DNA of 64,000 bases from Psococerastis gibbosa. Taxonomy: Eukaryota; Arthropoda; Insecta; Psocodea; Psocidae. Below the pieces are notes generated by a model, which was not told the DNA's origin, made no database searches, and was given only the letters and a program-made list of their open reading frames with translations. Shown here piece by piece: positions 13,361-64,000 of the stretch. The stretch lies in NCBI GenBank assembly GCA_963971405.1, contig OZ020484.1:3410001-3474000 (forward strand), written 5' to 3'. The number at the start of each line of letters is the position of its first letter. The first letter of the stretch is position 1. The translations under genes and the position numbers were made by a program.

Positions 13361-13988
13361 CGGTACCTACCTGTACAAATTGATATATGGCATGTAAATT
13401 TTCTTTATCTATGGTTTCTAGTATAATAGTAATATTAATTAATGATTCATATAATAAGTAATAGAGCAACAAGGCAGAAAGGGGGTAAGAAAGTGAATTA
13501 AAATTGATAGAAAGAATTAAAATAATTCAGCAAGTCTGAGAGCAGCAGGTAACCAGTGACCCCTTTTATTTGATGATATAAAAACAACCAAAGCCAGCAT
13601 AAACGAAGAGATAGTGCTGACATATCAAAGTAACAATTACGTGGCATCTGAGCTGTCGGGGACATGGGACATTAATTGTCAGGCCTCGAATTTTTAAGCA
13701 TTGCTATTTTAATGGAACTGCAAAGGATTTATCGGCCGGAGTCGAATGAGGCACCAGTATTATCCGGGTTGATGGATATGAAAGTGAACTTCCAAACGTT
13801 AATAATAATAATCACCTTTATTTTCATTATATAAATTTTCGTTTCGTCAACATCTGCAGTCAACATCTTCAGCGGCGCTGCGTTCTTCACTGGTTGGTAC
13901 CTCGGTGGTTCCGTCCACTTTCATATCCACCACGGCCCATCAGCCCGGATTCCACTGATTCTTCATTGTTTTTTTTGTTTTTTTCCAG

Positions 13989-14146
13989 GATTGGCAGGCT
14001 GAAGGTATTCTACATATCTGGTGTCCTACAGACAATCCTAGGCGTCGTAGTCGCGTTCATTCCAGAGTTTTATACATTTGTAGTTATACGGTACCTATAC
14101 GGCATTTTCGGCTCAGCGGGAACCTACAATTCAGGATTCGTCATGT
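13989..14146 (+). CDS. SLC22-like transporter, visible exon 2 (TM3-TM4)
   Basis: Acceptor 'ttttttccag', donor 't|gtaagt'. It completes the MFS loop (R-IGRLKVFY) and encodes hydrophobic segments around GVLQTILGVVVAFIPEF and the stretch RYLYGIFGSAGTYNSGFVM, typical of SLC22 TM3/TM4. Phase 2 in, phase 1 out. Confidence 0.88.
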
Positions 14147-14346
14147 GTAAGTACCTACCTAAAAACTTATCTATTTCTTGTAGCCTATATATTAATTTTA
14201 GTATTATATGTGGTATATAATTCTGGCATTAGGCTAAACTAACTTATGTTGAAGGGGCAACCTCCTCGCAATTAGACAATCTAGAAAATCCAACCAAGTA
14301 CAGATTTTTTCTAGATCCTCTGATTTCGTTTGCTGTATGGTAGACG

Positions 14347-21369: not shown

Positions 21370-22530
21370 TTGCCAGAGGGCTTGTGTATTGGACCAACAT
21401 TGATCGGGACATCGAGCTTATGTGCAGAAATTGCAAGGTGTGCGGAAGTTTCAAAACAAAATGCCGCAGTTCTAATGTACATTATTGGGAATACCCTGCA
21501 CGACCGTGGGAACGCCTACACATGGATTTCGCATTTTTTGGTGGTAAAAGTTACCTATTGATTATTGACGCCCACTCCAAGGCCCGAAATATTCATAACT
21601 CCAGATCAGACTTCAAACACAGTTATATCTGTTCTAGAAACGTTATTTGCACGTTACGGACTCCCAGTAGTTTCGGACAATCAACCTAGCCTGGTCAGTC
21701 GTGAAATGCAAAACTTCTACAAGAAGTACGGCATACGTCACATCACAGGACCGCCGTTCTTCTCACAGCATAACGGCCGAGCTGAGCGCTTCGTTTCCTC
21801 AATGAAAAACGCGCTAAGGACACTTCAGGAGTCCAAAGGTCCAACGTCAGAAAAATTACAGAAGTTCCTTTTCACCTACAGGAGGGTGCCATCACATGTG
21901 ACCACAGGTCAAAGTCCTGCTGCACTCTTCATGAAAAAAAGAGAACTCCGATCAACATTAGATTTAGGACGACCCGACATTGTGAATGATCACAATATGA
22001 AAAGAAGAAGAGGGAAGGAACTCCTGAAGACATATAGGTTTTACGAGGGTCAACGTGTGACGGCACGTACCTATACAAATCCTTTACGAACGTTGGAATT
22101 TGGTTCTATATAGTGGCACAGGACGGAGATTTACAGTACACCGTTCTGATCAACGGAGAACTACATCGTCGCCATGCAGACCAGTTACGTCCCGCGGGAG
22201 AAGAGATAGAACAGACTATCCATATCCCAGTACCCTACATTCCGAGAAGCGAAAATCCTGTTGGTGAACATATATACAAAAGCCACCAAGCGAAAAGGAA
22301 CCCATTTCAGAGGCAAGCTCTACCTCTGAGCCTATTGCAGAGTTACCTTCAGAGACAAGAATTTCACTTCAACAAGACAACGCGAGCAGTACGACGGTTC
22401 AAGACATCCCAGCAGAGACGGGCAGAAACATTCCGCCGTCCTTAGCTGAGCGTCGTACAAGACGGGTGGTGAAAAAACCCCCCGAAACTCGACTTATAAT
22501 TGACATTATCTGGTGCGCGCATTGAACACT
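21370..22530 (+). pseudogene. Ty3/gypsy retrotransposon, integrase remnant
   Basis: Encodes the 3' end of a Pol polyprotein in three frames: VYWTNIDRDIELMCRNCKVC (zinc-binding start), HMDFAFFGGKSY (first catalytic Asp), VVSDNQPS (second Asp; DNGPS expected) and GRAERFVSSMKNAL (catalytic Glu). The C-terminal part reads QDGDLQYTVLINGELHRRHADQLR. Frame breaks occur near 21590, where about two bases of a 'KWPE' stretch are missing, and near 22110. No reverse transcriptase, protease or gag is upstream. A purine tract (cggagggagg) lies at 22631-22640, just before the gap. Confidence 0.85.
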
Positions 22531-22643: not shown

Positions 22644-22843
22644 NNNNNNNNNNNNNNNNNNNNNNNNNNNNNNNNNNNNNNNNNNNNNNNNNNNNNNNNN
22701 NNNNNNNNNNNNNNNNNNNNNNNNNNNNNNNNNNNNNNNNNNNNNNNNNNNNNNNNNNNNNNNNNNNNNNNNNNNNNNNNNNNNNNNNNNNNNNNNNNNN
22801 NNNNNNNNNNNNNNNNNNNNNNNNNNNNNNNNNNNNNNNNNNN
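22644..22843. other. Assembly gap (200 N)
   Basis: Exactly 200 unknown bases, a conventional scaffold gap. It hides the left boundary of the palindromic element and the junction with the Ty3 remnant. Confidence 0.99.
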
Positions 22844-22852
22844 CTATGAGTA

Positions 22853-22924
22853 GTATAGAAAGGGGGTTTCTGGCGCTTACCCCACCCCCCGTCGAGCTAC
22901 CCCATCTATCCCCCGCGGGTGGTC

Positions 22925-22960
<36 letters not shown>

Positions 22961-22995
22961 CCACCCCCCCGTCATGCTACCCCTCGTGGGTGGTC

Positions 22996-23044
<49 letters not shown>

Positions 23045-23196
23045 ATTTCTTTCTTCTTCTTCTTTCTTCTTCGTGGGTGGTCTTTGTACCCCGCCGTGCT
23101 TATCCCGTTGTCTATCTATCTCTGTACCAGGTGGGTGGTCTATGACGCACCCCCCCCCCCCCCCCCCTCCCCGTAGTACAGCGTACATCTAGAATG
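22853..23196. repeat. Outer subterminal repeat, left, first copy
   Basis: Begins 'agtagtatagaaaggggg' with 'ttctggcgctt', then blocks ending GTGGGTGGTCT separated by T runs and a (TTC)n tract, and a C run at ~23150. It repeats the block at 23755-24280 and mirrors 37882-38316. Open frames through the T and K runs here are artefacts. Confidence 0.75.
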
Positions 23197-23227
23197 TTCC
23201 AAATGTGTCGTTACAAAAGGCATCGCC
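23197..23227 (+). promoter_or_regulatory. Truncated third copy of the leader cassette
   Basis: Identical in its first part to the cassettes at 24280 and 25481 ('cgttacaaaaggcatcgcctt') but stops at GCCTT, where the helicase-like fragment begins in the opposite orientation. If it still starts transcription, the RNA would be antisense to that fragment. Confidence 0.5.
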
Positions 23228-23742
23228 TTTTACCCGGTAAGCTGTAAACAAGCTGTAGATTTTTGTTATTTGGAAGTAGCTTTTCTGTTGCTACTCTTAT
23301 ATCTTTTACAGCCTCCCTAGTGTGGGTCAGTATTAGATCCCGCCCTGGGCAGTGCTGCTGAATGATGTAATGCGATTTGCCTGATCCGGGGTAGCCCTCA
23401 ACGAAAGTCAGCTTAGGCATAGGACGTGCGAATATGTTCACTTTACCTATAGACTGCATCAGTTCAGCATTCAGCATTAGCTCTGTCTTACCTGTTACCA
23501 AGATATATTTTTCTGCAGTATTGAATTTTTGGGAGAGGGGACAAAAGGAAACATAACCATCATTTTAGAGCGTACCCCATCCTATATGATATTTGATATT
23601 TGACCGGGTTCATATGATCGGCATTCAGCAATATATTTCTACGTTCTATCATGCTGTTAATATAGAACTCTTGTTTATTTTTATGCAAAAGGTAGCCAGA
23701 GGGGTTAGGTTGCACATCGGGGGCATGCTGACTTGGAATCTG
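23228..23742 (-). pseudogene. Fragment resembling an alphavirus-like RNA-virus superfamily 1 helicase (endogenous viral element)
   Basis: The minus strand encodes about 170 residues in two frames. The 3' part has a Walker A loop of the type VEGYPGSGKS followed by RDLILTHTREAVKDIR, the spacing seen in superfamily 1 helicases of virga/nege-like plus-strand RNA viruses. The 5' part continues the same protein upstream of the helicase after a one-base frame break near 23562-23568. There is no start codon, no later helicase motif, and the last codons come from the adjoining leader cassette. It is absent from the right arm. Assignment to a viral replicase is by motif only; another P-loop NTPase is possible. 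Confidence 0.5.
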
Positions 23743-23754
23743 AAGAAAATCAAT

Positions 23755-24279
23755 AGTAGTATAGAAAGGGGGGTTCTGGGACTTATCCCACCCCCCGTCG
23801 AGCTATCCCATCTATCCCACCCCGTCGTGCTATCCCCCGCGGGTGGTCTATCTATTTTTGCGTGTTATCCCTCGTGGGTGGTCTGAGGTGCTGGGACTTA
23901 TCCCACCCCCCCGTCGAGCTATCCCATCTACCCCTCGTGGATGGTCTGAGGTTCTGGCGCTTATCCCCCCCCGTCGAGACCCGTGGGTGGTCTTTCTATG
24001 GCACTATGATTGTTTTTTTTTTTTTTTTTTTTGTATAATTACTAATTTGTGAGACACAGAGTTATATTTTGATTTTATTTTATTTTTTTTTTATTTTTTT
24101 AATGGTGTTAATTGAATTAAAACATTTCTTTCTTCTTCTTTCTTCTTCGTGGGTGGTCTTTGTACCCCGCCGTGCTTATCCCGTTGTCTATCTATCTCTG
24201 TACCAGGTGGGTGGTCTATGACGCACCCCCCCCCCCCCCCTCCCCGTACAGCGTACATCTAGAATGTTCCAAATGTGTC
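23755..24279. repeat. Outer subterminal repeat, left, second copy
   Basis: Repeats of 'ccgtcgagctatcccatcta' ending in GTGGGTGGTCT, then T runs, (TTC)n, and a C run before the leader cassette. This is the copy that corresponds to the end of the right arm at 37882-38316. Confidence 0.75.
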
Positions 24280-24384
24280 GTTACAAAAGGCATCGCCTTG
24301 GGTTGAGGAGCTTAGTTGAAGCCAAACCTTCATTCAAGACTCAAGTAATACCACTTTATAAGTAAAATTGTATAATCTTACAAC
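24280..24384 (+). promoter_or_regulatory. Leader/promoter cassette of the small gene, left arm
   Basis: About 105 bp upstream of the ATG that align with the 90 bp upstream of the PolB gene: TACAAAAGGCATCGCCTT, then GGGTTGAGGAGCTTAGTTGAA, 'aaccttcattc', 'taataccactt' and 'tgtataatc-tacaacATG'. It contains the 13-bp inverted repeat AAGGCATCGCCTT. Two different genes with the same leader suggests shared transcriptional control. Confidence 0.65.
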
Positions 24385-24690
24385 ATGACATCTCTATTCA
24401 ATAAAGTTAATGCCATCAACCAAGTAGCCGGGCCTACCATACCAATGCGAAAACTAGTGATTGGAGTTAAATACCTAATATTGAAAATAGTGCAAATCGA
24501 AAAAACAGAATATGGACCAGCTGTAAAAGTCATACTGCGAGGATTGGAAAAAGAAGTCGTGGAATGTTTTGTGCCTCAACAATATCTGCCAGCCTTTCAA
24601 CAAAGTGAAGTTACTCCAGGAGCTGAGATGTATCTTATCGTTTCAAGCCATCGGGGAAAAAATAGTGTCAACCTACAGATCATAGAATGA
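24385..24690 (+). CDS. Small protein, possible single-strand-DNA-binding (OB-like), left arm
   Basis: A 101-residue protein (start MTSLFNKVNAINQV, end NLQIIE). It is rich in alternating hydrophobic and polar residues of the beta-barrel kind: IGVKYLILKI, YGPAVKVILRG, VECFVPQQYLPAF, EMYLIVSSHRG. No signal peptide or membrane segment. Size, position next to a DNA polymerase and the shared leader suggest a replication accessory such as an OB-fold ssDNA-binding protein, but no diagnostic motif proves it. The right-arm copy at 37470-37775 is identical at protein level, which argues for an intact gene. The start codon is fixed by the shared leader, whose end is the ATG. Confidence 0.65.
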   Translation: MTSLFNKVNAINQVAGPTIPMRKLVIGVKYLILKIVQIEKTEYGPAVKVILRGLEKEVVECFVPQQYLPAFQQSEVTPGAEMYLIVSSHRGKNSVNLQIIE

Positions 24691-24963
24691 ATATTTCATG
24701 ATGTATTATTATTGTAAACTACAGAAATAATGTAAATATATGAATAATTTCTATATATATTTTTGTTCTTGTTTTATTAATTGCATAATTAGTTTTAAGC
24801 TTATAGTTAGATGATGATGAGTATTAAAAACTAATGGTTGAAAGAAACAAGCTATTGCTTCAGTCATAATCGAGTACTTGAACGGTGAAGGGTTATCTTA
24901 ATCATAGACTATGAAATGATGTAAATCAAATAATTAAACGAGTACATTAGCTAATTAATTTTA

Positions 24964-25356
24964 ATAAATCTATCCGAAGCATATGTTTATGGGAAGTATT
25001 GATTTGGTAAACAAATAACAGAGTGCAGGTTCAAACCTGTTGTGAATCACCAGGTGCATATAACTCTGTACAGTCGTCTAATGGTTCAAACAAACAAGCC
25101 ATTAATAAATCTACCCCTCGCTGACAGTCCATTGTAAGCTAAAGTGATTTTTGTTTTCGTAAATCTATCCAACACTTAGGTTGAAGGGAAGTATTGATTT
25201 GGCAAACAAATAACAGAGTGCAGGTTCAAACCTGTTGTGAATCACCAGGTGCATATAACTCTGTACAGCCGTCTAATGGTTCAAACAAACAAGCCATTAA
25301 TAAATCTACCCCTCGCTGACAGTCCATTGTAAGCTAAAGTGATTTTTGTTTTTGCA
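24964..25356. repeat. Two 196-bp tandem units with a tRNA-like hairpin, left arm
   Basis: Units at 24964-25159 and 25160-25356 are nearly identical from 'taaatctatcc' to 'gtgatttttgttt'. Each contains GCAGGTTCAAACCTGT, a hairpin carrying a B-box-like GGTTCAAACC, followed by AATCACCA, whose AATCA can pair with an upstream TGATT. That is a minimal T-arm plus acceptor ending in CCA, but the T loop is one base short and no anticodon arm is evident. Mirrored at 36808-37199. Confidence 0.6.
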
Positions 25357-25480
25357 TTAGTTGCAATCGATCGTTAGAAAATGAATGGTGTCTTAACAAC
25401 ATATTATCCGCTTCGTGATGGACAATCTATCCCTGTACCCTTACCATCTATCCTTAGTGGGTGGTCGTCGCTACAAAAGG

Positions 25481-25569
25481 CATCGCCTTGGGTTGAGGAG
25501 CTTAGTTGAAACCGAACCTTCATTCGCGTAATACCACTTCAGTGTAGTGAATTTGTGTAATCGTACAGC
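25481..25569 (+). promoter_or_regulatory. Leader/promoter cassette of PolB, left arm
   Basis: Starts TACAAAAGGCATCGCCTT and ends 'tgtgtaatcgtacagcATG'. It aligns with the cassette at 24280-24384 with a ~15-bp deletion in the middle. It is preceded by the subterminal motif GTGGGTGGTC, as at the outer ends. Confidence 0.65.
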
Positions 25570-28500
25570 ATGGAATCGAAGAAAAGGAAACTGAACGCGA
25601 GGGAATATGTGTGTAGAATATGTGCTGTGAGTTTCACACTAAATTGCAATTTAAAAAGACATGTCATAAACAAACATGGAGTTAGTATTATACCATGCAA
25701 AAAATGTAAAGCCACATTCACATGCAGAGAGGACCTATCTCATCATATATTGCAGCGGCATACATCAGCAAATCACGGGATGGAAATTGTACAAACTCGC
25801 CCAAAACTGACATCTGCTGGGAATGGAGAGGACTGCAAGGCATGCGGGGGCAAAATCAACAACTCCAGTCCACTTACAGTTCTGTGTAAAGAATGTTCAT
25901 CTATCTTTTCGTGTAAGTATGAGAATCCTGTATCTGTTAAAACCCTTGAGTGTAAATATATTTGTGAATTCTGTTCGGTCCCTTTTGCTCGGAAGTATAG
26001 TTTGAAAGTCCACATATTAAGCATACATATTATTAATTGTTTGAATTGCAAGAAATTGTTTATGAGGGAAGATTTTACTAATCATAAGAATAATTGCACA
26101 ATTATGAGCGGGGGAGCACTATCCAACGAGGAGAACTTTTTATGCAAAACATCTATAGCTCTAGATGGTGTAGTAAAACAATACAATTATAAAAACATAA
26201 CCATACATGATCCCGTTGTATATTTAAATAATATGGAAGGTGAGGTTGATTCTATTACAACTGAAAACATTAAACTTTTTAATGCAATTAAATGGTATGT
26301 AGCCTTACACATTAAATTTGAACGCGGACCCGACAATAATAAAAACTATACTGAAGCATGGTTTCATGCTAAAAACGAACAACTTTTCCTCACTGATGAC
26401 TCCACAATAAAATATCAACAAATGATTGAACAAATTTTAGTAAAAATAGATAAATTTCAAGCAATGGGAAGCGGGTGGGTGTTGAAATCTTTAAAACATT
26501 TTGTTATTTTTATTGCTGAATATAATCCATGCAGTGGTAGTAGTTACATCCCTTTACCCAAAAAAATCTATAACACTAAAGCAGTAATCAATATTAAAAA
26601 TGACGATCTCAAATGTTTTATATGGTCAATTTTAGCATACTTACATCCAGTAAGTCGGGATGCTCAGCGGGTTTATAATTATAAAAAGTATGAAAAAGAG
26701 TTAGATATGAAAGGTATAACTTACCCAGTATCTTTGCAAGTCATTTCAAAATTTGAAAAAAATAATAATATTGGAGTAAATGTGTTTGGTTATGATCACA
26801 GACTGTACCCATTATATTTATCACAAAGTCACCATTATAATAAGCAGGTGGATCTGCTTTACATAACGGAAGATGAAAATTCACATTATTGTCTTATTAA
26901 AAATTTCAACAAACTTAATTTCTCAATCACTAAACATAAGGAACAAAAGTTTTATTGTCGTTGGTGCATACACGCCTTTAGTAGTGCTGAACGCTTACAT
27001 GAACATAAGCCACTCTGCTCAAGACATGATCCTCAAAAAACCACATTTCCAATTCAGGAGAAAAGCACTATGAAATTTGATAAGGCACAATATATGATCC
27101 CTGTAGCATATAGAATATATGCCGATTTCGAGAGCATTCTCAGTCCCGTTGAAGGGACTATTTGTAACACTGAAAAATTATCTGCACATATACCATCAGG
27201 GTTTTGTTATGTTGTTGTAGATATCAATGGGAATAAGTTTAAAGAACCGGTAGTTTACAGGGGAGCTAATGCTGTTGATGTGTTTTTGAAATCGTTATTA
27301 AATGTTAAGGATGAAATTTTAAACATTTATAAAAATATTAAAGCAGTAATTATGACTGACGAGGATAGAGAAAATTTTAAAAACTCTGTCATTTGTAATG
27401 TTTGTCAAAAACCACTAGGAAATGATCGTGTAATAGACCACTGTCATATAACGGGGAAATATAGACAAGCATTACATAATGTTTGTAATATGAGCAATTT
27501 TCGAACTCCAAAACATATCCCCGTTTTTATGCATAACTTAAAACGTTATGATGGTCATCTTATCATGGAAGGGGTTGGGAAACTAAAAAATATGAAAATT
27601 ACTTGTATAGCTAAAACTATGGAGGAATATATAGCCTTTAGTATTGGAGAGTTACGCTTTTTAGACACTTATCAATTTATGGCCTCCTCTTTAGATTCAT
27701 TAGTCAAAAATCTTGTTGATGCGGATAAAAATAAATTTAAAATTATGAAAACATGTTTTGTGGGTGAAAAATTAGACTTGATGTTGAGGAAGGGTGTCTT
27801 CCCCTATGAATATATAACGCACGAATCAAAATTTAATGAGGAACACTTACCTCCAATTGATGCATTTTTTAGTCAATTAACTCAAGAGGGGATTTCACAA
27901 GAAAAATATGAACATGCTCAAAAGGTGTGGAATGCTTTTAGTATAAAGAATTTAGGAGAATACCAAGACTTGTATGTATTAACAGACACCCTTCTCCTTT
28001 GCGATGTTTTTGAAGCCTTTAGAGCCTTATGTTTTGAAAACGATAACCTCGAAATTTGTCACATGTACACAGCACCAGGGCTAGCTCTTCAGAGCTGTCT
28101 GAAAATGACAGGAGTAGAACTTGAGCTATTGAGCGAACCTGATATGTATTTGTTTTGTGAGGCTGGGATTCGCGGGGGTATAAGTATGATTTCAAAAAGA
28201 TTTGCGGAAAGCAACAATAAATACTTAAAAAAATTTGACTCAAATAAGCCATCCAAATTTATAGTATATTGGGATTGCACTAACTTATACGGACATGCGA
28301 TGCGTCAATTTTTACCTATTAGTGGGTTTCGCTGGATGGAGGAGGAAGAAATCAAAAACTTTAATGTAATGCTCGCACCTGATGAGGGCGATGATGGGTT
28401 CATATTACAGGTGGACATGGAATATCCACAAAAATTACATGATTTACATAATGAATACCCACTAGCAGCTGAACATTGTGTTGTAACATCAGACATGATT

Positions 28501-29550
28501 TCCCCCTATTGTAAGGAATTTCTCGCTGAAAATGATATATCTTTAACATCCAACTTCTCAAAGCTTATTCCCAACTTAAACGATAAACACAACTATATAA
28601 TACATTATCGAAATTTGAAGCAATGTTTAGAATTGGGATTAAAATTAAAATGTATACATAAAATTTTAGCTTTTAAGCAAAGCGCTTGGATGCGACCCTT
28701 TATCGATTTTAACACAGAAAAACGGAAATTAGCTTGTAATGATTTCGAGAAGGATTTTTATAAATTGAAAATTAATAGTATGTATGGGAAGACAATGGAG
28801 AATGTTAGAAATCACGCAAAATTAGAGTTAGTTAACACTGCCAAACGAGCTCGTAAACTTATCTCATCCCCTGCATTTAAAGATTTTAAGATTTTTTCAA
28901 ACGATTTAATAGCAGTCCGGTCAAAAAAAACTAATATTTTGCTAAACAAGCCAATATTTATTGGCCTAACCGTTCTCGAACTATCCAAGGTAGTTATGTA
29001 TGAATTTCATTATAACTTTGTAAAACAAATGTATGGTGATAAAGCTGCACTGATTTTAACAGATACAGATTCGCTCGTTTATGAGGTTGAGAGTGATGAT
29101 TTGTACACTGATTTAAAACCATATCCCCATTTATTTGATAACTCAGTATATCCTCCGAACCATCTCTTATACAATATTGAAAATAAAAAGAAAGTGGGAA
29201 CGTTCAAAGATGAAAATGCTCAATCTCACATTTTACAATGTGTTGCTTTACGCCCAAAATTGTATTCCCTTTTAGAGGAGGGAAAGGAGAAGAAAGTGGG
29301 CAAAGGTATAGTTCGTTCAACCCTTAAACATCATATTAACCATCAAGACTATTACAATACCTTATTTAAGCCTTGCATAGCAAAAGACTCACGTAAACCA
29401 ATGTTCCGTATTCAAAGTAGAGATCATAAGCTTTTTACAATTAAACAGCAAAAAGTCACTCTTAGTCCTTATGATGATAAACGGTATGTGTGTCGTAATG
29501 GAATTGATAGTTTAGCTCATGGTCATTATCGCATTATAGATATGTCTTAG
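25570..29550 (+). CDS. Family B DNA polymerase with N-terminal zinc fingers, left arm
   Basis: 1326 residues, uninterrupted and without introns. C2H2 fingers use C15/C18/H31/H36 and C43/C46/H59/H64; further fingers lie at about 130-155, 160-175 and 463-485. An endonuclease-VII-like zinc motif follows (C609xxC612, DHCH 623-626, TGKYR). The 3'-5' exonuclease has YADFES (D519, E521) and HNLKRYDG (655-662). Polymerase motifs are A, DCTNLYG (D902); B, KINSMYG (1067-1073); C, DTDS (1165-1168). This set matches the virus/transposon PolBs of Polintons, adintoviruses and bidnaviruses, which are thought to be protein-primed. All catalytic residues are present, so it should be active. It shares its leader with the 101-residue gene upstream. 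It differs from the right-arm copy at residues 643 (N/T) and 1275 (R/S). Confidence 0.92.
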   Translation: MESKKRKLNAREYVCRICAVSFTLNCNLKRHVINKHGVSIIPCKKCKATFTCREDLSHHILQRHTSANHGMEIVQTRPKLTSAGNGEDCKACGGKINNSSPLTVLCKECSSIFSCKYENPVSVKTLECKYICEFCSVPFARKYSLKVHILSIHIINCLNCKKLFMREDFTNHKNNCTIMSGGALSNEENFLCKTSIALDGVVKQYNYKNITIHDPVVYLNNMEGEVDSITTENIKLFNAIKWYVALHIKFERGPDNNKNYTEAWFHAKNEQLFLTDDSTIKYQQMIEQILVKIDKFQAMGSGWVLKSLKHFVIFIAEYNPCSGSSYIPLPKKIYNTKAVINIKNDDLKCFIWSILAYLHPVSRDAQRVYNYKKYEKELDMKGITYPVSLQVISKFEKNNNIGVNVFGYDHRLYPLYLSQSHHYNKQVDLLYITEDENSHYCLIKNFNKLNFSITKHKEQKFYCRWCIHAFSSAERLHEHKPLCSRHDPQKTTFPIQEKSTMKFDKAQYMIPVAYRIYADFESILSPVEGTICNTEKLSAHIPSGFCYVVVDINGNKFKEPVVYRGANAVDVFLKSLLNVKDEILNIYKNIKAVIMTDEDRENFKNSVICNVCQKPLGNDRVIDHCHITGKYRQALHNVCNMSNFRTPKHIPVFMHNLKRYDGHLIMEGVGKLKNMKITCIAKTMEEYIAFSIGELRFLDTYQFMASSLDSLVKNLVDADKNKFKIMKTCFVGEKLDLMLRKGVFPYEYITHESKFNEEHLPPIDAFFSQLTQEGISQEKYEHAQKVWNAFSIKNLGEYQDLYVLTDTLLLCDVFEAFRALCFENDNLEICHMYTAPGLALQSCLKMTGVELELLSEPDMYLFCEAGIRGGISMISKRFAESNNKYLKKFDSNKPSKFIVYWDCTNLYGHAMRQFLPISGFRWMEEEEIKNFNVMLAPDEGDDGFILQVDMEYPQKLHDLHNEYPLAAEHCVVTSDMISPYCKEFLAENDISLTSNFSKLIPNLNDKHNYIIHYRNLKQCLELGLKLKCIHKILAFKQSAWMRPFIDFNTEKRKLACNDFEKDFYKLKINSMYGKTMENVRNHAKLELVNTAKRARKLISSPAFKDFKIFSNDLIAVRSKKTNILLNKPIFIGLTVLELSKVVMYEFHYNFVKQMYGDKAALILTDTDSLVYEVESDDLYTDLKPYPHLFDNSVYPPNHLLYNIENKKKVGTFKDENAQSHILQCVALRPKLYSLLEEGKEKKVGKGIVRSTLKHHINHQDYYNTLFKPCIAKDSRKPMFRIQSRDHKLFTIKQQKVTLSPYDDKRYVCRNGIDSLAHGHYRIIDMS

Positions 29551-29787
29551 GTTTAAAAGTTTGTTTTAAGTGATTGTATGTAAAGACATTGATTTCTTTT
29601 AAAATATGTGTATTATAAAATTTGTATATCATAAAATGGTTTACATTCGTTTAGCTCATGGTCATTATTGTATTATAGATAAGTCTTAGGCTTAAAAGCT
29701 TGTTTTAAGTGATTGTATGAAAAGACATTGATTTCTTTTAAAATATGTGTATTATAAAATTTATATATCATAAAATGGTTTACATTC
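29511..29787 (+). repeat. Tandem duplication of the PolB 3' end and 3' UTR
   Basis: From 'tttagctcatggtcattat', codons near the PolB C-terminus, the next ~139 bp including the stop and 3' UTR are repeated once at 29650. The second copy has point changes and no coding role. It is present in mirror image at about 32372-32649, so it predates the inverted duplication. Confidence 0.8.
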
Positions 29788-29799
29788 ATTTACAATAGT

Positions 29800-30129
29800 T
29801 GATGTACAATACCAGTTAAAGGTACATATTCATATAAGCAGTCGCTGATGAGTAGACAGTCCCTTTATTTGCCATGCAGACAACCCTTTATATATTGGAG
29901 TGCATAAGGTCGGTGGCCATTTCAGTCCCCCTCGCATTAAGATTATGACACATCGCTATTAATTCAGGTACGCCGATATAATAAGTGCACTCAGCATCTT
30001 AAAAGAAATGTATTAATCCCACAATAGGTGTTCAATATACCCACCAGCCGTGTTTATAAAAATGAATTTTCAATAATCCCAACTAAGTCTCAGTTTCTCA
30101 CAATAGGTGTGCAATATACCAGGCAGTCG
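29800..30129. other. Unique spacer between PolB and the TTAGG-like array, left arm
   Basis: No gene recognised. It contains two similar stretches ('cacaataggtgt-caatata-c', 'agccgtgttt' / 'agtcgtgttt') at ~30020-30060 and ~30100-30140, and is mirrored at about 32030-32360. Confidence 0.5.
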
Positions 30130-32010
30130 TGTTTTCTATGTTAGATTTAGTTACATTGGGCTAGGACAGGTTAAGTTATAATATTAGGCTAGGTTAAATT
30201 TTTATATCAAGTTAGGATAGGTTACATTGGATTAGGATAGGCCAGATTAGGTTACATTGGGTTAGGTTAGCTGTTTACCTAGATTAAATTCATCATTTTT
30301 TTTTTAACAAAAATATTTTTATATCAAATAAATATGATGTTAAGTTAGGTTACATTGAATTAGGATAGGTTAGATTAGGTTACATTGGATTAGGATAGGC
30401 CAGATTACGTTACATTGGGTTAGGTTAGCTGTTTACCTAGATTAAATTCATCATTTTTTTAACAAAAATATTTTTATATCAAATAAATATGATGTTAAGT
30501 TAGGTTACATTGAATTAGGATAGGTTAGATTAGGTTACATTGGGTGCAATATACCAGGCAGTTGTGTTTTCTATGTTAGATTTAGTTACATTGGGCTAGG
30601 ACAGGTTAAGTTTTAATATTAGTCTAGGTTAAATTTTTATATCAAGTTAGGGTAGGTTACATTGGATTAGGATAGGCCAGATTAGGTTACATTGGGTTAG
30701 GTTAGCTGTTTACCTAGATTAAATTCATCATTTCTTTTTTTAAAAAAAATATTTTTTATATCAAATAAATATAATGTTAAGTTAGGTTACATTGAATTAG
30801 GATAGGTTAGATTAGGTTACATTGGATTAGGATAGGCCAGATTAGGTTACATTGGGTTAGGTTAGCTGTTTACCTAGATTAAATTCATCATTTTTTTAAC
30901 AAAAATATTTTTATATCAAATAAATATGATGTTAAGTTAGGTTACATTGAATTAGGATAGGTTAGATTAGGTTACATTGGATTAGGATAGGCCAGATTAG
31001 GTTACATTGGGTTAGGTTAGCTGTTTACCTAGATTACATTCATCATTTTTTTAACAAAAATATTTTTATATCAAATAAATATGACGTTAAGTTAGGTTAC
31101 ATTGAATTAGGATAGGTTACATTAGGTTACATTGGGTTAGGATAGGTTAAGTTAGCGGCTAACTTAACCTATCCTAACCCAATGTAACCTAATGTAACCT
31201 ATCCTAATTCAATGTAACCTAACTTAACGTCATATTTATTTGATATAAAAATATTTTTGTTAAAAAAATGATGAATGTAATCTAGGTAAACAGCTAACCT
31301 AACCCAATGTAACCTAATCTGGCCTATCCTAATCCAATGTAACCTAATCTAACCTATCCTAATTCAATGTAACCTAACTTAACATCATATTTATTTGATA
31401 TAAAAATATTTTTGTTAAAAAAATGATGAATTTAATCTAATCTAGGTAAACAGCTAACCTAACCCAATGTAACCTAATCTGGCCTATCCTAATCCAATGT
31501 AACCTACCCTAACTTGATATAAAAATTTAACCTAGACTAATATTAAAACTTAACCTGTCCTAGCCCAATGTAACTAAATCTAACATAGAAAACACAACTG
31601 CCTGGTATATTGCACCCAATGTAACCTAATCTAACCTATCCTAATTCAATGTAACCTAACTTAACATCATATTTATTTGATATAAAAATATTTTTGTTAA
31701 AAAAATGATGAATTTAATCTAGGTAAACAGCTAACCTAACCCAATGTAACGTAATCTGGCCTATCCTAATCCAATGTAACCTAATCTAACCTATCCTAAT
31801 TCAATGTAACCTAACTTAACATCATATTTATTTGATATAAAAATATTTTTGTTAAAAAAAAAAATGATGAATTTAATCTAGGTAAACAGCTAACCTAACC
31901 CAATGTAACCTAATCTGGCCTATCCTAATCCAATGTAACCTATCCTAACTTGATATAAAAATTTAACCTAGCCTAATATTATAACTTAACCTGTCCTAGC
32001 CCAATGTAAC
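30130..32010. repeat. TTAGG-like array forming the palindrome centre
   Basis: Higher-order units of ~135-180 bp made of 'ttaggttacattgg' and 'attaggataggycagattagg' blocks, 'ctgtttacctagatta' and 'aacaaaaatatttttatatc'. Orientation flips at GTTAGC-g-GCTAAC (31151-31163, centre 31157), so the left half reads TTAGG and the right half CCTAA. The units resemble degenerate arthropod telomere repeats, but the repeat is not a pure TTAGG array. The left half is about 150 bp longer. Confidence 0.85.
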
Positions 32011-32371
32011 TAAATCTAACATAGAAAACACGACTGCCTGGTATATTGCACACCTATTGTGAGAAACTGAGACTTAGTTGGGATTATTGAAAATTCATTT
32101 TTATAAACACGGCTGGTGGGTATATTGAACACCTATTGTGGGATTAATACATTTCTTTTAAGATGCTGAGTGCACTTATTATATCGGCGTACCTGAATTA
32201 ATAGCGATGTGTCATAATCTTAATGCGAGGGGGACTGAAATGGCCACCGACCTTATGCACTCCAATATATAAAGGGTTGTCTGCATGGCAAATAAAGGGA
32301 CTGTCTACTCATCAGCGACTGCTTATATGAATATGTACCTTTAACTGGTATTGTACATCAACTATTGTAAA

Positions 32372-32649
32372 TGAATGTAAACCATTTTATGATATATAAA
32401 TTTTATAATACACATATTTTAAAAGAAATCAATGTCTTTTCATACAATCACTTAAAACAAGCTTTTAAGCCTAAGACTTATCTATAATACAATAATGACC
32501 ATGAGCTAAACGAATGTAAACCATTTTATGATATACAAATTTTATAATACACATATTTTAAAAGAAATCAATGTCTTTACATACAATCACTTAAAACAAA
32601 CTTTTAAACCTAAGACATATCTATAATGCGATAATGACCATGAGCTAAA
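32372..32649 (-). repeat. Tandem duplication of the PolB 3' end, right arm
   Basis: Mirror image of 29511-29787, with the same ~139-bp period and the same substitutions in the outer copy. Confidence 0.75.
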
Positions 32650-35600
32650 CTATCAATTCCATTACGACACACATACCGTTTATCATCATAAGGACTAAGA
32701 GTGACTTTTTGCTGTTTAATTGTAAAAAGCTTATGATCTCTACTTTGAATACGGAACATTGGTTTACTTGAGTCTTTTGCTATGCAAGGCTTAAATAAGG
32801 TATTGTAATAGTCTTGATGGTTAATATGATGTTTAAGGGTTGAACGAACTATACCTTTGCCCACTTTCTTCTCCTTTCCCTCCTCTAAAAGGGAATACAA
32901 TTTTGGGCGTAAAGCAACACATTGTAAAATGTGAGATTGAGCATTTTCATCTTTGAACGTTCCCACTTTCTTTTTATTTTCAATATTGTATAAGAGATGG
33001 TTCGGAGGATATACTGAGTTATCAAATAAATGGGGATATGGTTTTAAATCAGTGTACAAATCATCACTCTCAACCTCATAAACGAGCGAATCTGTATCTG
33101 TTAAAATCAGTGCAGCTTTATCACCATACATTTGTTTTACAAAGTTATAATGAAATTCATACATAACTACCTTGGATAGTTCGAGAACGGTTAGGCCAAT
33201 AAATATTGGCTTGTTTAGCAAAATATTAGTTTTTTTTGACCGGACTGCTATTAAATCGTTTGAAAAAATCTTAAAATCTTTAAATGCAGGGGATGAGATA
33301 AGTTTACGAGCTCGTTTGGCAGTGTTAACTAACTCTAATTTTGCGTGATTTCTAACATTCTCCATTGTCTTCCCATACATACTATTAATTTTCAATTTAT
33401 AAAAATCCTTCTCGAAATCATTACAAGCTAATTTCCGTTTTTCTGTGTTAAAATCGATAAAGGGTCGCATCCAAGCGCTTTGCTTAAAAGCTAAAATTTT
33501 ATGTATACATTTTAATTTTAATCCCAATTCTAAACATTGCTTCAAATTTCGATAATGTATTATATAGTTGTGTTTATCGTTTAAGTTGGGAATAAGCTTT
33601 GAGAAGTTGGATGTTAAAGATATATCATTTTCAGCGAGAAATTCCTTACAATAGGGGGAAATCATGTCTGATGTTACAACACAATGTTCAGCTGCTAGTG
33701 GGTATTCATTATGTAAATCATGTAATTTTTGTGGATATTCCATGTCCACCTGTAATATGAACCCATCATCGCCCTCATCAGGTGCGAGCATTACATTAAA
33801 GTTTTTGATTTCTTCCTCCTCCATCCAGCGAAACCCACTAATAGGTAAAAATTGACGCATCGCATGTCCGTATAAGTTAGTGCAATCCCAATATACTATA
33901 AATTTGGATGGCTTATTTGAGTCAAATTTTTTTAAGTATTTATTGTTGCTTTCCGCAAATCTTTTTGAAATCATACTTATACCCCCGCGAATCCCAGCCT
34001 CACAAAACAAATACATATCAGGTTCGCTCAATAGCTCAAGTTCTACTCCTGTCATTTTCAGACAGCTCTGAAGAGCTAGCCCTGGTGCTGTGTACATGTG
34101 ACAAATTTCGAGGTTATCGTTTTCAAAACATAAGGCTCTAAAGGCTTCAAAAACATCGCAAAGGAGAAGGGTGTCTGTTAATACATACAAGTCTTGGTAT
34201 TCTCCTAAATTCTTTATACTAAAAGCATTCCACACCTTTTGAGCATGTTCATATTTTTCTTGTGAAATCCCCTCTTGAGTTAATTGACTAAAAAATGCAT
34301 CAATTGGAGGTAAGTGTTCCTCATTAAATTTTGATTCGTGCGTTATATATTCATAGGGGAAGACACCCTTCCTCAACATCAAGTCTAATTTTTCACCCAC
34401 AAAACATGTTTTCATAATTTTAAATTTATTTTTATCCGCATCAACAAGATTTTTGACTAATGAATCTAAAGAGGAGGCCATAAATTGATAAGTGTCTAAA
34501 AAGCGTAACTCTCCAATACTAAAGGCTATATATTCCTCCATAGTTTTAGCTATACAAGTAATTTTCATATTTTTTAGTTTCCCAACCCCTTCCATGATAA
34601 GATGACCATCATAACGTTTTAAGTTATGCATAAAAACGGGGATATGTTTTGGAGTTCGAAAAGTGCTCATATTACAAACATTATGTAATGCTTGTCTATA
34701 TTTCCCCGTTATATGACAGTGGTCTATTACACGATCATTTCCTAGTGGTTTTTGACAAACATTACAAATGACAGAGTTTTTAAAATTTTCTCTATCCTCG
34801 TCAGTCATAATTACTGCTTTAATATTTTTATAAATGTTTAAAATTTCATCCTTAACATTTAATAACGATTTCAAAAACACATCAACAGCATTAGCTCCCC
34901 TGTAAACTACCGGTTCTTTAAACTTATTCCCATTGATATCTACAACAACATAACAAAACCCTGATGGTATATGTGCAGATAATTTTTCAGTGTTACAAAT
35001 AGTCCCTTCAACGGGACTGAGAATGCTCTCGAAATCGGCATATATTCTATATGCTACAGGGATCATATATTGTGCCTTATCAAATTTCATAGTGCTTTTC
35101 TCCTGAATTGGAAATGTGGTTTTTTGAGGATCATGTCTTGAGCAGAGTGGCTTATGTTCATGTAAGCGTTCAGCACTACTAAAGGCGTGTATGCACCAAC
35201 GACAATAAAACTTTTGTTCCTTATGTTTAGTGATTGAGAAATTAAGTTTGTTGAAATTTTTAATAAGACAATAATGTGAATTTTCGTCTTCCGTTATGTA
35301 AAGCAGATCCACCTGCTTATTATAATGGTGACTTTGTGATAAATATAATGGGTACAGTCTGTGATCATAACCAAACACATTTACTCCAATATTATTATTT
35401 TTTTCAAATTTTGAAATGACTTGCAAAGATACTGGGTAAGTTATACCTTTCATATCTAACTCTTTTTCATACTTTTTATAATTATAAACCCGCTGAGCAT
35501 CCCGACTTACTGGATGTAAGTATGCTAAAATTGACCATATAAAACATTTGAGATCGTCATTTTTAATATTGATTACTGCTTTAGTGTTATAGATTTTTTT

Positions 35601-36590
35601 GGGTAAAGGGATGTAACTACTACCACTGCATGGATTATATTCAGCAATAAAAATAACAAAATGTTTTAAAGATTTCAACACCCACCCGCTTCCCATTGCT
35701 TGAAATTTATCTATTTTTACTAAAATTTGTTCAATCATTTGTTGATATTTTATTGTGGAGTCATCAGTGAGGAAAAGTTGTTCGTTTTTAGCATGAAACC
35801 ATGCTTCAGTATAGTTTTTATTATTGTCGGGTCCGCGTTCAAATTTAATGTGTAAGGCTACATACCATTTAATTGCATTAAAAAGTTTAATGTTTTCAGT
35901 TGTAATAGAATCAACCTCACCTTCCATATTATTTAAATATACAACGGGATCATGTATGGTTATGTTTTTATAATTGTATTGTTTTACTACACCATCTAGA
36001 GCTATAGATGTTTTGCATAAAAAGTTCTCCTCGTTGGATAGTGCTCCCCCGCTCATAATTGTGCAATTATTCTTATGATTAGTAAAATCTTCCCTCATAA
36101 ACAATTTCTTGCAATTCAAACAATTAATAATATGTATGCTTAATATGTGGACTTTCAAACTATACTTCCGAGCAAAAGGGACCGAACAGAATTCACAAAT
36201 ATATTTACACTCAAGGGTTTTAACAGATACAGGATTCTCATACTTACACGAAAAGATAGATGAACATTCTTTACACAGAACTGTAAGTGGACTGGAGTTG
36301 TTGATTTTGCCCCCGCATGCCTTGCAGTCCTCTCCATTCCCAGCAGATGTCAGTTTTGGGCGAGTTTGTACAATTTCCATCCCGTGATTTGCTGATGTAT
36401 GCCGCTGCAATATATGATGAGATAGGTCCTCTCTGCATGTGAATGTGGCTTTACATTTTTTGCATGGTATAATACTAACTCCATGTTTGTTTATGACATG
36501 TCTTTTTAAATTGCAATTTAGTGTGAAACTCACAGCACATATTCTACACACATATTCCCTCGCGTTCAGTTTCCTTTTCTTCGATTCCAT
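32610..36590 (-). CDS. Family B DNA polymerase with N-terminal zinc fingers, right arm
   Basis: Second intact 1326-residue copy, head-to-head with 25570-29550. All zinc-finger, exonuclease (D519/E521), endonuclease-VII-like and polymerase motifs (D902, KINSMYG, DTDS 1165-1168) are retained. Only T643 and S1275 differ from the left copy. Two independently intact copies with so few changes mean that the duplication is very recent, that the arms are kept alike by gene conversion or replication, or that one arm was copied by the assembler. The ATG is fixed by the same leader cassette as in the left arm. Confidence 0.92.
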   Translation of the reverse strand: MESKKRKLNAREYVCRICAVSFTLNCNLKRHVINKHGVSIIPCKKCKATFTCREDLSHHILQRHTSANHGMEIVQTRPKLTSAGNGEDCKACGGKINNSSPLTVLCKECSSIFSCKYENPVSVKTLECKYICEFCSVPFARKYSLKVHILSIHIINCLNCKKLFMREDFTNHKNNCTIMSGGALSNEENFLCKTSIALDGVVKQYNYKNITIHDPVVYLNNMEGEVDSITTENIKLFNAIKWYVALHIKFERGPDNNKNYTEAWFHAKNEQLFLTDDSTIKYQQMIEQILVKIDKFQAMGSGWVLKSLKHFVIFIAEYNPCSGSSYIPLPKKIYNTKAVINIKNDDLKCFIWSILAYLHPVSRDAQRVYNYKKYEKELDMKGITYPVSLQVISKFEKNNNIGVNVFGYDHRLYPLYLSQSHHYNKQVDLLYITEDENSHYCLIKNFNKLNFSITKHKEQKFYCRWCIHAFSSAERLHEHKPLCSRHDPQKTTFPIQEKSTMKFDKAQYMIPVAYRIYADFESILSPVEGTICNTEKLSAHIPSGFCYVVVDINGNKFKEPVVYRGANAVDVFLKSLLNVKDEILNIYKNIKAVIMTDEDRENFKNSVICNVCQKPLGNDRVIDHCHITGKYRQALHNVCNMSTFRTPKHIPVFMHNLKRYDGHLIMEGVGKLKNMKITCIAKTMEEYIAFSIGELRFLDTYQFMASSLDSLVKNLVDADKNKFKIMKTCFVGEKLDLMLRKGVFPYEYITHESKFNEEHLPPIDAFFSQLTQEGISQEKYEHAQKVWNAFSIKNLGEYQDLYVLTDTLLLCDVFEAFRALCFENDNLEICHMYTAPGLALQSCLKMTGVELELLSEPDMYLFCEAGIRGGISMISKRFAESNNKYLKKFDSNKPSKFIVYWDCTNLYGHAMRQFLPISGFRWMEEEEIKNFNVMLAPDEGDDGFILQVDMEYPQKLHDLHNEYPLAAEHCVVTSDMISPYCKEFLAENDISLTSNFSKLIPNLNDKHNYIIHYRNLKQCLELGLKLKCIHKILAFKQSAWMRPFIDFNTEKRKLACNDFEKDFYKLKINSMYGKTMENVRNHAKLELVNTAKRARKLISSPAFKDFKIFSNDLIAVRSKKTNILLNKPIFIGLTVLELSKVVMYEFHYNFVKQMYGDKAALILTDTDSLVYEVESDDLYTDLKPYPHLFDNSVYPPNHLLYNIENKKKVGTFKDENAQSHILQCVALRPKLYSLLEEGKEKKVGKGIVRSTLKHHINHQDYYNTLFKPCIAKDSSKPMFRIQSRDHKLFTIKQQKVTLSPYDDKRYVCRNGIDSLAHGHYRIIDMS

Positions 36591-36692
36591 GCTGTACGAT
36601 TACACAAATTCACTACACTGAAGTGGTATTACGCGAATGAAGGTTCGGTTTCAACTAAGCTCCTCAACCCAAGGCGATGCCTTTTGTAGCGA
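36591..36692 (-). promoter_or_regulatory. Leader/promoter cassette of PolB, right arm
   Basis: Mirror of 25481-25569 with the AAGGCATCGCCTT inverted repeat intact. The neighbouring GTGGGTGGTC motif is also kept. Confidence 0.65.
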
Positions 36693-36807
36693 CGACCACC
36701 CACGAAGGATAGATGGTAAGGGTACAGGGATAGATTGTCCATCACGAAGCGGATAATATGTTGTTAAGACACCATTCATTTTCTAACGATCGATTGCAAG
36801 TAATGCA

Positions 36808-37199
36808 AAAACAAAAATCACTTTAGCTTACAATGGACTGTTAGCGAGGGGTAGATTTATTAATGGCTTGTTTGTTTGAACCATTAGACGGCTGTACAGA
36901 GTTATATGCACCTGGTGATTCACAACAGGTTTGAACCTGCACTCTGTTATTTGTTTGCCAAATCAATACTTCCCTTCAACCTAAGTGTTGGATAGATTTA
37001 CGAAAACAAAAATCACTTTAGCTTACAATGGACTGTCAGCGAGGGGTAGATTTATTAATGGCTTGTTTGTTTGAACCATTAGACGACTGTACAGAGTTAT
37101 ATGCACCTGGTGATTCACAACAGGTTTGAACCTGCACTCTGTTATTTGTTTACCAAATCAATACTTCCCATAAACATATGCTTCGGATAGATTTATTAA
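36808..37199. repeat. Two 196-bp tandem units with a tRNA-like hairpin, right arm
   Basis: Mirror of 24964-25356, including both GGTTCAAACC hairpins and AATCACCA on the minus strand. Confidence 0.6.
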
Positions 37200-37469
37200 A
37201 ATTAATTAGCTAATGTACTCGTTTAATTATTTGATTTACATCATTTCATAGTCTATGATTAAGATAACCCTTCACCGTTCAAGTACTCGATTATGACTGA
37301 AGCAATAGCTTGTTTCTTTCAACCATTAGTTTTTAATACTCATCATCATCTAACTATAAGCTTAAAACTAATTATGCAATTAATAAAACAAGAACAAAAA
37401 TATATATAGAAATTATTCATATATTTACATTATTTCTGTAGTTTACAATAATAATACATCATGAAATAT

Positions 37470-37775
37470 TCATTCTATGATCTGTAGGTTGACACTATTT
37501 TTTCCCCGATGGCTTGAAACGATAAGATACATCTCAGCTCCTGGAGTAACTTCACTTTGTTGAAAGGCTGGCAGATATTGTTGAGGCACAAAACATTCCA
37601 CGACTTCTTTTTCCAATCCTCGCAGTATGACTTTTACAGCTGGTCCATATTCTGTTTTTTCGATTTGCACTATTTTCAATATTAGGTATTTAACTCCAAT
37701 CACTAGCTTTCGCATTGGTATGGTAGGCCCGGCTACTTGGTTGATAGCATTAACTTTATTGAATAGAGATGTCAT
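37470..37775 (-). CDS. Small protein, possible single-strand-DNA-binding (OB-like), right arm
   Basis: 101 residues, the same sequence as the product of 24385-24690. It lies upstream of and in the same direction as the right-arm PolB, separated by the tandem 196-bp units. As in the left arm, the function is inferred from size, predicted beta-rich character and context only. Perfect protein conservation between arms contrasts with a base change in its leader (next entry). Confidence 0.65.
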   Translation of the reverse strand: MTSLFNKVNAINQVAGPTIPMRKLVIGVKYLILKIVQIEKTEYGPAVKVILRGLEKEVVECFVPQQYLPAFQQSEVTPGAEMYLIVSSHRGKNSVNLQIIE

Positions 37776-37881
37776 GTTGTAAGATTATACAATTTTACGT
37801 ATAAAGTGGTATTACTTGAGTCTTGAATGAAGGTTTGGCTTCAACTAAGCTCCTCAACCCAAGGTGATGCCTTTTGTAACG
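37776..37881 (-). promoter_or_regulatory. Leader/promoter cassette of the small gene, right arm
   Basis: Mirror of 24280-24384. Here the 13-bp inverted repeat is broken by one change (AAGGCATCACCTT), and the flank 'gttctaaatgtgtcg' also differs slightly from the left arm. These are useful markers that the arms are not simple copies. Confidence 0.6.
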
Positions 37882-38316
37882 ACACATTTAGAACCTTCTA
37901 GATGTCTGGCTGTACGGGGAGGGGGGGGGGGGTGCGTCATAGACCACCCACCTGGTACAGAGATAGATAGACAACGGGATAAGCACGGCGGGGTACAAAG
38001 ACCACCCACGAAGAAGAAAGAAGAAGAAAGAAATGTTTTAATTCAATTAACACCATTAAAAAAAAAATAAAAAAAAAAATAAATAAATAAAAAATAAAAA
38101 ATAAAATAAAAAAAATAAAAAAATAAAAAAAAATAACTCTGTATCTCACAAATTAGTAATTATAAAAAAAAAACGATCATGGTGCCAGAACCTCAGACCA
38201 CCCACGAGGGGTAACACACAAAAATAGATAGACCACCCGCGGGGGATAGATGGGATAGCACGACGGGGGGTGGGATAAGCGCCAGAAACCCCCTTTCTAC
38301 TCTACTTGCAATATTA
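37882..38316. repeat. Outer subterminal repeat, right arm, and end of the element
   Basis: Mirror of 23755-24280: G run at 37919, (AAG)n at ~38010-38030, an A/T-rich slippage tract at 38057-38135, GTGGGTGGTCT blocks, and the terminus 'aaccccctttctactctac' at ~38288-38315. Beyond ~38316 the sequence belongs to another repeat. No integration-site duplication can be scored because the left junction lies in or near the gap. Confidence 0.7.
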
Positions 38317-62152: not shown

Positions 62153-62424
62153 GTAAGTTTGTCGCTATCGCTTATGTACAGATTGCTTCAGTAGAACTAC
62201 TATTAAGCAAATCGCAAATTGAGTAACGAAACCGGACAGGTTGCTTTGGCAAAAAACTATTTGGTTTTGAGGAAGTTTTTTTGAAACAATTATAGAAAAT
62301 TAACGTTCAAATGCATTGCGTGCCCTGCCATTATTACTGTGTGGTAATGTGTTGGTCTCACCTATATATAATTTGACAATTATATTTAATCCTAACCTGG
62401 GATTAATAATTTCGTTTATTTCAG

Positions 62425-62600
62425 ATGACGAGGCAGGTCGCATTAGCGTTGTCACGGTAAAGATGTTGGAGAAGCTGTTGCTGTCGTTTGCAGTGGATTA
62501 CAACTACACTGCTGAGCTTTACCCCACTGTTGTACGAAATTCAGCCATAGGCGTAGGCGCCAGGCTCAGTGGCGCACTATCACCATGGTTTACATTGCTG
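62425..62600 (+). pseudogene. SLC22 exon copy, open
   Basis: Open, with ELYPTVVRNSAIGVGARLSG. Closest to the copy at 5329-5504. Its downstream intron is cut after ~39 bases by the Penelope-like insertion. Confidence 0.7.
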
Positions 62601-62865
62601 GTAAGTTTGTCGTTATCGCTTATGTACAGATTGGTTCAGTCCTGTTTTACGGCTGGTAAAATAAGTTAAAATTTCTTGTTGGAAACTGGGGTACAATAAA
62701 ATTTAGTTTGCTCAAGATATATATATATAGATATATATGGCCTCAGCTATTTTACGTCGTGTGCACAGTCATAGTGAGATTCTCCAAAGTGACTTCGTGG
62801 AACTTCATCATACTTATAATTGTAGAAAGAATGAGACGCAACTGATCCACAATAAAATATATTAA

Positions 62866-63783: not shown

Positions 63784-64000
63784 TGCTGGTAAGTTTGTCG
63801 TTATCGCTTATGTACAGATTGGTTCAGTAGAACTACTATTCAGCAAATCGCAAATTGAGTAACGAAACCGGACAGGTTGCTATGGCAAAAAACTGTTTTG
63901 GTTCTCCGGAAAATAAGTTTTTTTGAAACAATTATAGAAAATTAACGGTCGAATGCATTGCGTGCCCTACCATTATTAGTATGTGGTAATGTGTTGGTCT

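Follow-up and report, generated by a model that had tools for sequence, protein, structure and literature searches.

The stretch analysed here (the window, 64,000 nucleotides from Psococerastis gibbosa, contig OZ020484.1, positions 3,410,001 to 3,474,000, or C1:3410001-3474000 in our locus names) contains a large palindrome, each arm of which carries an intact gene of 101 codons and an intact 1326-codon gene for a family B DNA polymerase (PolB). The inverted arms, at 24255-30320 and 31840-37905, are 6066 nt long and about 99.8% identical, with one 1-nt indel and 12 substitutions between them, and the palindrome is centred on position 31157 in a perfect 282-nt inverted repeat with a 1-nt spacer. 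The 1326-codon open reading frames (ORFs) of the two arms differ by two residues and one synonymous site, the 101-codon ORFs encode identical proteins, and the left arm has one more ~155-bp tandem unit near the centre than the right arm. A sequence-only reading had described these head-to-head arms with both genes intact, and this was borne out. The span that it proposed, 22844-38316, was corrected: comparison with other insertions placed the termini, which start with 5'-AGTAG, at 23755 and 38302. Position 22844 only borders a 200-N gap and is not an element end, and 22844-23754 consists of a partial second terminus copy and a helicase-like fragment. The palindrome holds PolB, the 101-aa ORFs and a remnant of the 3' end of a capsid gene, and lacks integrase, ATPase, protease and capsid genes. 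Its features, including the terminal inverted repeats (TIRs), are as follows.

22644-22843, no strand: 200-N gap, directly left of the contig holding the palindrome
22849-23229, forward: partial second copy of the terminus/TIR (AGTAGTATAG...) at the contig tip, probably chimeric
23755-25425, forward: left TIR, about 1.67 kb, with the 101-aa gene inside; full-length-element type in its outer portion, at least as far as 24690
24385-24690, forward: 101-aa gene of the left arm, within the TIR
24959-25348, forward: two 195-bp tandem repeats, intergenic between the 101-aa gene and PolB
25467-25525, forward: 59-nt leader repeat upstream of PolB, sharing 95% identity with 24277-24335 upstream of the 101-aa gene
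25570-29550, forward: PolB of the left arm, 1326 aa
29790-29860, reverse: vestige of the capsid (MCP) gene, from its 3' end; the homology with full-length elements runs to about 29860
29861-30108, forward: sequence between the breakpoint and the TTAGG-like array
30109-31156, forward: degenerate array of TTAGG 5-mers with ~155-bp and 437-bp higher-order repeats, G-strand toward the centre
31157, no strand: palindrome centre, 1-nt spacer
31158-32051, reverse: TTAGG-like array of the right arm, one ~155-bp unit shorter
32610-36590, reverse: PolB of the right arm, 1326 aa
37470-37775, reverse: 101-aa gene of the right arm
36735-38302, reverse: right TIR with palindrome-type terminus AGTAGAGTAG and flank TGCAAT; inner end mirrored from the left TIR

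We infer that the 59-nt repeat may act as a shared promoter or leader of PolB and the 101-aa gene.

A search of the insect's own genome (409 Mb in 68 contigs) revealed full-length elements of about 15 kb that share PolB, the 101-aa gene and the termini with the palindrome. Their order is a TIR with the 101-aa gene, then integrase, ATPase and capsid genes, then PolB and a second TIR with the 101-aa gene. As the TIR extends about 1.67 kb inward and includes the entire 101-aa gene, each full-length element has two copies of that gene, one at each end. For the element at C2:28.46M, which was read in separate pieces, Pfam searches identified a double-jelly-roll capsid protein (PF21738, E = 1.1e-90), an A32-type packaging ATPase (E = 4e-9), a PLA2-like domain (E = 5.7e-14), and a weak adenovirus-protease match below the curated cut-off (Peptidase_C5, E = 0.007). 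PLA2-like domains of this type are known from parvoviruses. The left part of the element encodes an rve integrase (E = 1.5e-10), whose C terminus was judged chromodomain-like by eye in the translation, the profile match being to rve only. The ORFs at C1:32.36M start like those of C2:28.46M, and C3:3.12M shares some of them. Six of the nine full-length elements measured are 14.2 to 15.3 kb long and three are 16.5 to 19.6 kb; the largest of all, at C3:49.3M, contains a Ty3-type insertion. The available part of PMC4028283 gives PolB, an rve integrase and a packaging ATPase as the Polinton gene set, and the full-length parents have all three at C2:28.46M.

The parent element is abundant, and its near-identical copies indicate that it is recent. 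The capsid search of the genome scored 102 copies among 877 candidates, 101 of them without an internal stop, in two lineages (83 copies at 99-100% identity and 19 at 92%). The presence of at least 101 stop-free capsid genes in two lineages suggests recent amplification. One copy, at C2:50.4M, has a TAG codon. Relatives of the capsid protein numbered 1261, and the named hosts among the 120 listed were beetle, bee, aphid and ant.

The arm of the palindrome tracks the full-length element up to window position 29860, which is some 70 nt into the capsid gene from its 3' end, and then diverges. Because the homology stops inside the capsid gene, the palindrome derives from a full-length element. Over the 3' 1651 nt of PolB, 11 palindrome-type sequences differ by 0 to 2 sites among themselves, whereas they show 5 to 8 differences from three full-length copies; the 11 include two (L027 and L028) whose second arm is not shown, and an interrupted one (L073) was left out. 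At C3:45.53M the two arms are identical over these 1651 nt, and both are one site off the commonest palindrome type, toward the full-length copies. A single site separates the two arms of the window copy, and likewise those at C3:36.8M.

The same structure recurs across the genome. All 35 PolB copies scored among 1326 candidates were 100% identical, and 16 of them form eight convergent pairs spaced by 1.9 to 3.2 kb. For the 101-aa gene, 40 matches were scored of 370 candidates, 30 of which make up 15 plus/minus pairs outside the window, 12.4 to 18.5 kb apart. The capsid gene lies between ten of these pairs; the other five (C3:45.53M, C3:45.385M, C2:35.9M, C2:26.39M and C1:0.157M) have no capsid gene among the 102 scored of 877 candidates. 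Four of the five contain the palindrome centre, and C3:45.53M consists of inverted PolB ends with a gap between them. Among the matches listed (40 scored of 398 candidates), the same centre with its 1-nt spacer was found at at least 26 loci, and it is free of gaps in pieces L076, L077, L081 and L082.

The array at 30109-31156 comprises 73 in-phase TTAGG units in runs, against a maximum of 7 in 500 first-order Markov simulations. Its G-rich side points to the centre, and the right arm mirrors the left. Of 12 contig ends read, six were nearly pure TTAGG/CCTAA and one was all N; the former identify TTAGG as the telomere repeat of the host. The centre is oriented like a head-to-head fusion of two telomere-like ends. 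The array carries higher-order repeats of 155 bp and 437 bp and hence is not a fresh telomere; three full-length copies lack it between the capsid gene and PolB.

Target-site duplications (TSDs), which are 6 bp long in Polintons, were sought for nine full-length elements with both termini and for 14 palindromes; C12:39.46M, C2:35.9M (right terminus not found) and C1:41.0M (flank is N) were left out. Exact 6-bp TSDs flank all nine full-length elements and five of the 14 palindromes (TTGTTT, ATTACA, CTCGTC, AAACAC and TACAAT), those at C1:5.88M, C19:20.48M, C3:45.53M, C3:45.385M and C3:46.1M. The palindrome at C2:41.9M matches at five of six letters and is N-free in the pieces seen. The chance of even 4 TSDs in 13 palindromes is about 2.5e-12. 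As the exact TSDs lie outside both arms, palindromes integrate as units at some loci. Those with an exact or near TSD measure 14.1 to 15.4 kb including gap letters, except for C3:46.1M at about 17.4 kb; such similarity in length to the full-length elements would permit packaging.

In 13 elements with matching TSDs (nine full-length elements and four palindromes), the TIRs of the two ends have a mean identity of 0.969, a value reached by none of 5000 permutations; the mean is 0.866 in ten palindromes without an exact TSD. The palindrome at C3:46.1M joined the set after this test and is outside it. Matched TIRs suggest that, prior to integration, one end serves as the template for the other, as happens in panhandle or protein-primed replication.

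Four points are established: the palindrome derives from the full-length element, a single centre is found at many loci, TSDs flank whole palindromes at five loci, and the polymerase ORFs are intact. We consider it likely, judging from the assembled genome, that the palindrome arose as a defective, snap-back form of an element of the Polinton/adintovirus kind that abounds in this TTAGG-telomere genome. A full-length element would have broken inside the 3' end of its capsid gene, and the PolB-side fragment would have been joined to degenerate TTAGG repeats, by capture of TTAGG-like DNA. Head-to-head duplication of the joined fragment would then yield a linear molecule that carries PolB twice and ends on either side in the same viral terminus. 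Telomere fusion, hairpin copying and end joining are candidate makers of the centre. Such a DNA could replicate from its two identical termini by the element's own PolB and integrate by means of an integrase that full-length elements provide in trans. The sequence-only reading had suggested that a linear genome with protein-primed or hairpin-ended replication can yield such head-to-head units; integration as a unit does occur at some loci, and a protein-primed genome could generate such a structure. We propose more tentatively, with the balance somewhat against it, that this is a Polinton satellite living as a palindrome, with two copies each of the polymerase and the terminus gene, a telomere-like TTAGG centre, no capsid or integrase, and near-parental length. 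It would replicate as an inverted dimer, be mobilised and perhaps packaged in trans by its parents, and have already split into young intact and older decayed forms with one common centre.

The window copy itself did not pass the TSD test, its flanks being ATCAAT on the left and TGCAAT on the right. Its left outer TIR is only 0.702 identical to its right TIR, which ranks 42nd of 45 as a partner. Positions 23755-24690 align with the right end of the full-length element at C1:32.36M over 932 of 932 positions with no substitution, with 21 gap columns, and 506 bp of left flank are shared with that element, 29 Mb away, at 99.8% identity. Between 24253 and 24453 all eight substitution sites are in the full-length state in the left arm and in the palindrome state in the right arm. 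On the right, the junction continues without a break into other DNA. The 200-N gap and the extra TIR copy make the left side most simply an assembly chimera, and it is probably a join to another element. A genuine recombination or gene-conversion event involving a palindrome and the element at C1:32.36M would also account for the substitution-free alignment and the shared flank; we hold it to be unlikely, given the position at a contig tip beside the gap, the broken extra TIR copy and the lack of a matching TSD.

Several observations weigh against the snap-back derivative and would favour a broader artefact, in which all palindromes result from contig fold-back or from switching among near-identical copies. 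All evidence for palindromes comes from assembled sequence. N gaps are present in six of ten palindrome-centre pieces versus none of four full-length middle pieces, and the left outer arm in the window belongs to another element. The flanks mismatch at eight of the 14 palindromes tested, the window included. At all five palindromes with exact TSDs, a 200-N gap interrupts or adjoins the centre (observed directly at four and deduced from match spacing for C3:46.1M), and palindromes crossed without a gap mostly have mismatched flanks. The main weakness is that a gap-free palindrome with an exact TSD was not seen at any locus tested. A centre gap and mismatched flanks occur together at C14:21.7M. 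We read the mismatches as the assembler switching between insertions inside 7-kb near-identical arms. Artefact throughout is rejected by the exact 6-bp TSDs beyond both arms of five palindromic insertions; a diverged subfamily with the same centre and inverted arms in gap-free pieces, and the lack of the centre array in the three full-length copies, also argue against it, leaving it a slim chance.

That diverged subfamily comprises older, decayed palindromes at C15:2.53M, C21:3.87M, C21:3.88M and C3:18.95M (pieces L103-L106, L110 and L111). Their centre is the same and is counted among the at least 26 loci, but PolB and capsid persist only as fragments; pieces L104 and L105 show inverted arms around it without a gap. 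At C15:2.53M the inverted symmetry extends over ~11 kb, with the array found again close to the outer ends, as in an inverted concatemer.

The remaining two explanations are both very improbable. The sequence-only reading had suggested a minimal PolB replicon, made of the 101-aa gene and PolB, whose linear genome forms head-to-head dimers; the window arms do carry just these two long genes and palindromes are widespread, but integrase, ATPase and capsid genes (and a weak protease match) are present in full-length elements of the same genome whose ends and 101-aa gene are the same and whose PolB is near-identical, and the truncated capsid gene at the end of the arm means that gene loss came first, so this replicon is rejected, its putative monomer being the PolB-side end of a full-length element. 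Inverted duplication by the host at each locus after integration, fold-back inversions being a known repair outcome (PMC10622511 and PMC7467729, in the parts available), is rejected since many loci share the same centre and captured sequence, with TSDs outside both arms, which points to one origin followed by integration.

The exonuclease and polymerase motif residues of PolB are conserved and are invariant in 22 aligned sequences. The PF03175-type profile for protein-primed polymerases did not match the window PolB at E up to 1 and matched 3 of the 22 aligned members. The N terminus shows weak C2H2 finger matches, followed by an OTU-like domain at about residues 329-445, and there is an EndoVII-like zinc module. 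None of the 50 rows shown for Foldseek alone was an OTU entry, and it gave no match at E 0.001; VIA-align listed five OTU entries. An N-terminal OTU-like domain is described for adintovirus PolB in the available part of PMC11071296, and the PolB studied here shares this trait. Viral contigs searched with PolB yielded no confirmed relative, while a broader alignment gave two. The 101-aa protein likewise had no confirmed relative in viral contigs, no protein relatives at E 0.01, and no credible homologue in the first 20 loci. Phages gave no match, nor did a sequence search of the PDB. AlphaFold2 modelled the 101-aa protein with a pLDDT of 47 and an OB-fold-like strand order at low confidence only. 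Its earlier label as SSB-like (resembling single-stranded DNA-binding proteins) is unproven.

Judged by gene content, termini and length, the full-length parents resemble Polinton/Maverick elements and insect adintoviruses by their OTU-like PolB, rve integrase, A32-like ATPase, double-jelly-roll capsid, long TIRs, 6-bp TSD and length of about 15 kb. The palindrome differs by its lack of integrase, ATPase, protease and capsid, its two PolB copies and its TTAGG-like centre. The snap-back defective genomes of adenovirus incomplete particles are inverted duplications of one genome end. They are similar in that the end of a protein-primed linear genome is duplicated head to head, with identical termini and near genome length; here, in contrast, one palindrome type with intact polymerase genes is found at many chromosomal sites, some with TSDs. 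The available parts of PMC4061559 and PMC8363768 describe, for bidnaviruses and Vesanto virus, PolB linked to inverted terminal repeats and short PolB segments, and, for bidnaviruses and Polintons, a small gene beside the TIR. The palindrome is not made of segments but of two halves, inverted to each other, from a single Polinton-like genome. The scans, which included no dedicated search, showed neither NS1 nor a parvovirus capsid gene, and none of the titles listed in the literature searches concerned palindromic Polintons.

If correct, the snap-back origin would be evidence, from a genome, that Polintons form snap-back genomes, replicate them and integrate them like protein-primed viruses, and that a snap-back form can turn into a mobile family. 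The more than 100 stop-free capsid genes and the matched TIR pairs make the question of whether Polintons are live viruses or transposons testable. Near-identical palindromes can also mislead long-read assemblies, as probably happened at this window.

A broken, EVE-like (endogenous viral element) sequence resembling RNA-virus SF1 helicases lies between the two direct TIR copies, at 23211-23564 and adjoining 23560-23802, both on the reverse strand. It matches Viral_helicase1 at E 0.0094 and has weak PDB matches including SARS-CoV-2 nsp13 and a "replicase large subunit"; the same stretch flanks the full-length element at C1:32.37M. Near the palindrome are also an integrase-domain fragment, Ty3-like by eye (21562-22113, forward strand), and a GIY-YIG ORF, Penelope-like by eye (62962-63807, reverse strand). 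The palindrome may sit within a transporter-gene intron: the window contains an MFS-type exon at 13750-14220 (E 0.0012) and a possible second transporter exon at 62304-62669 on the forward strand, recognised by eye and without a Pfam match.
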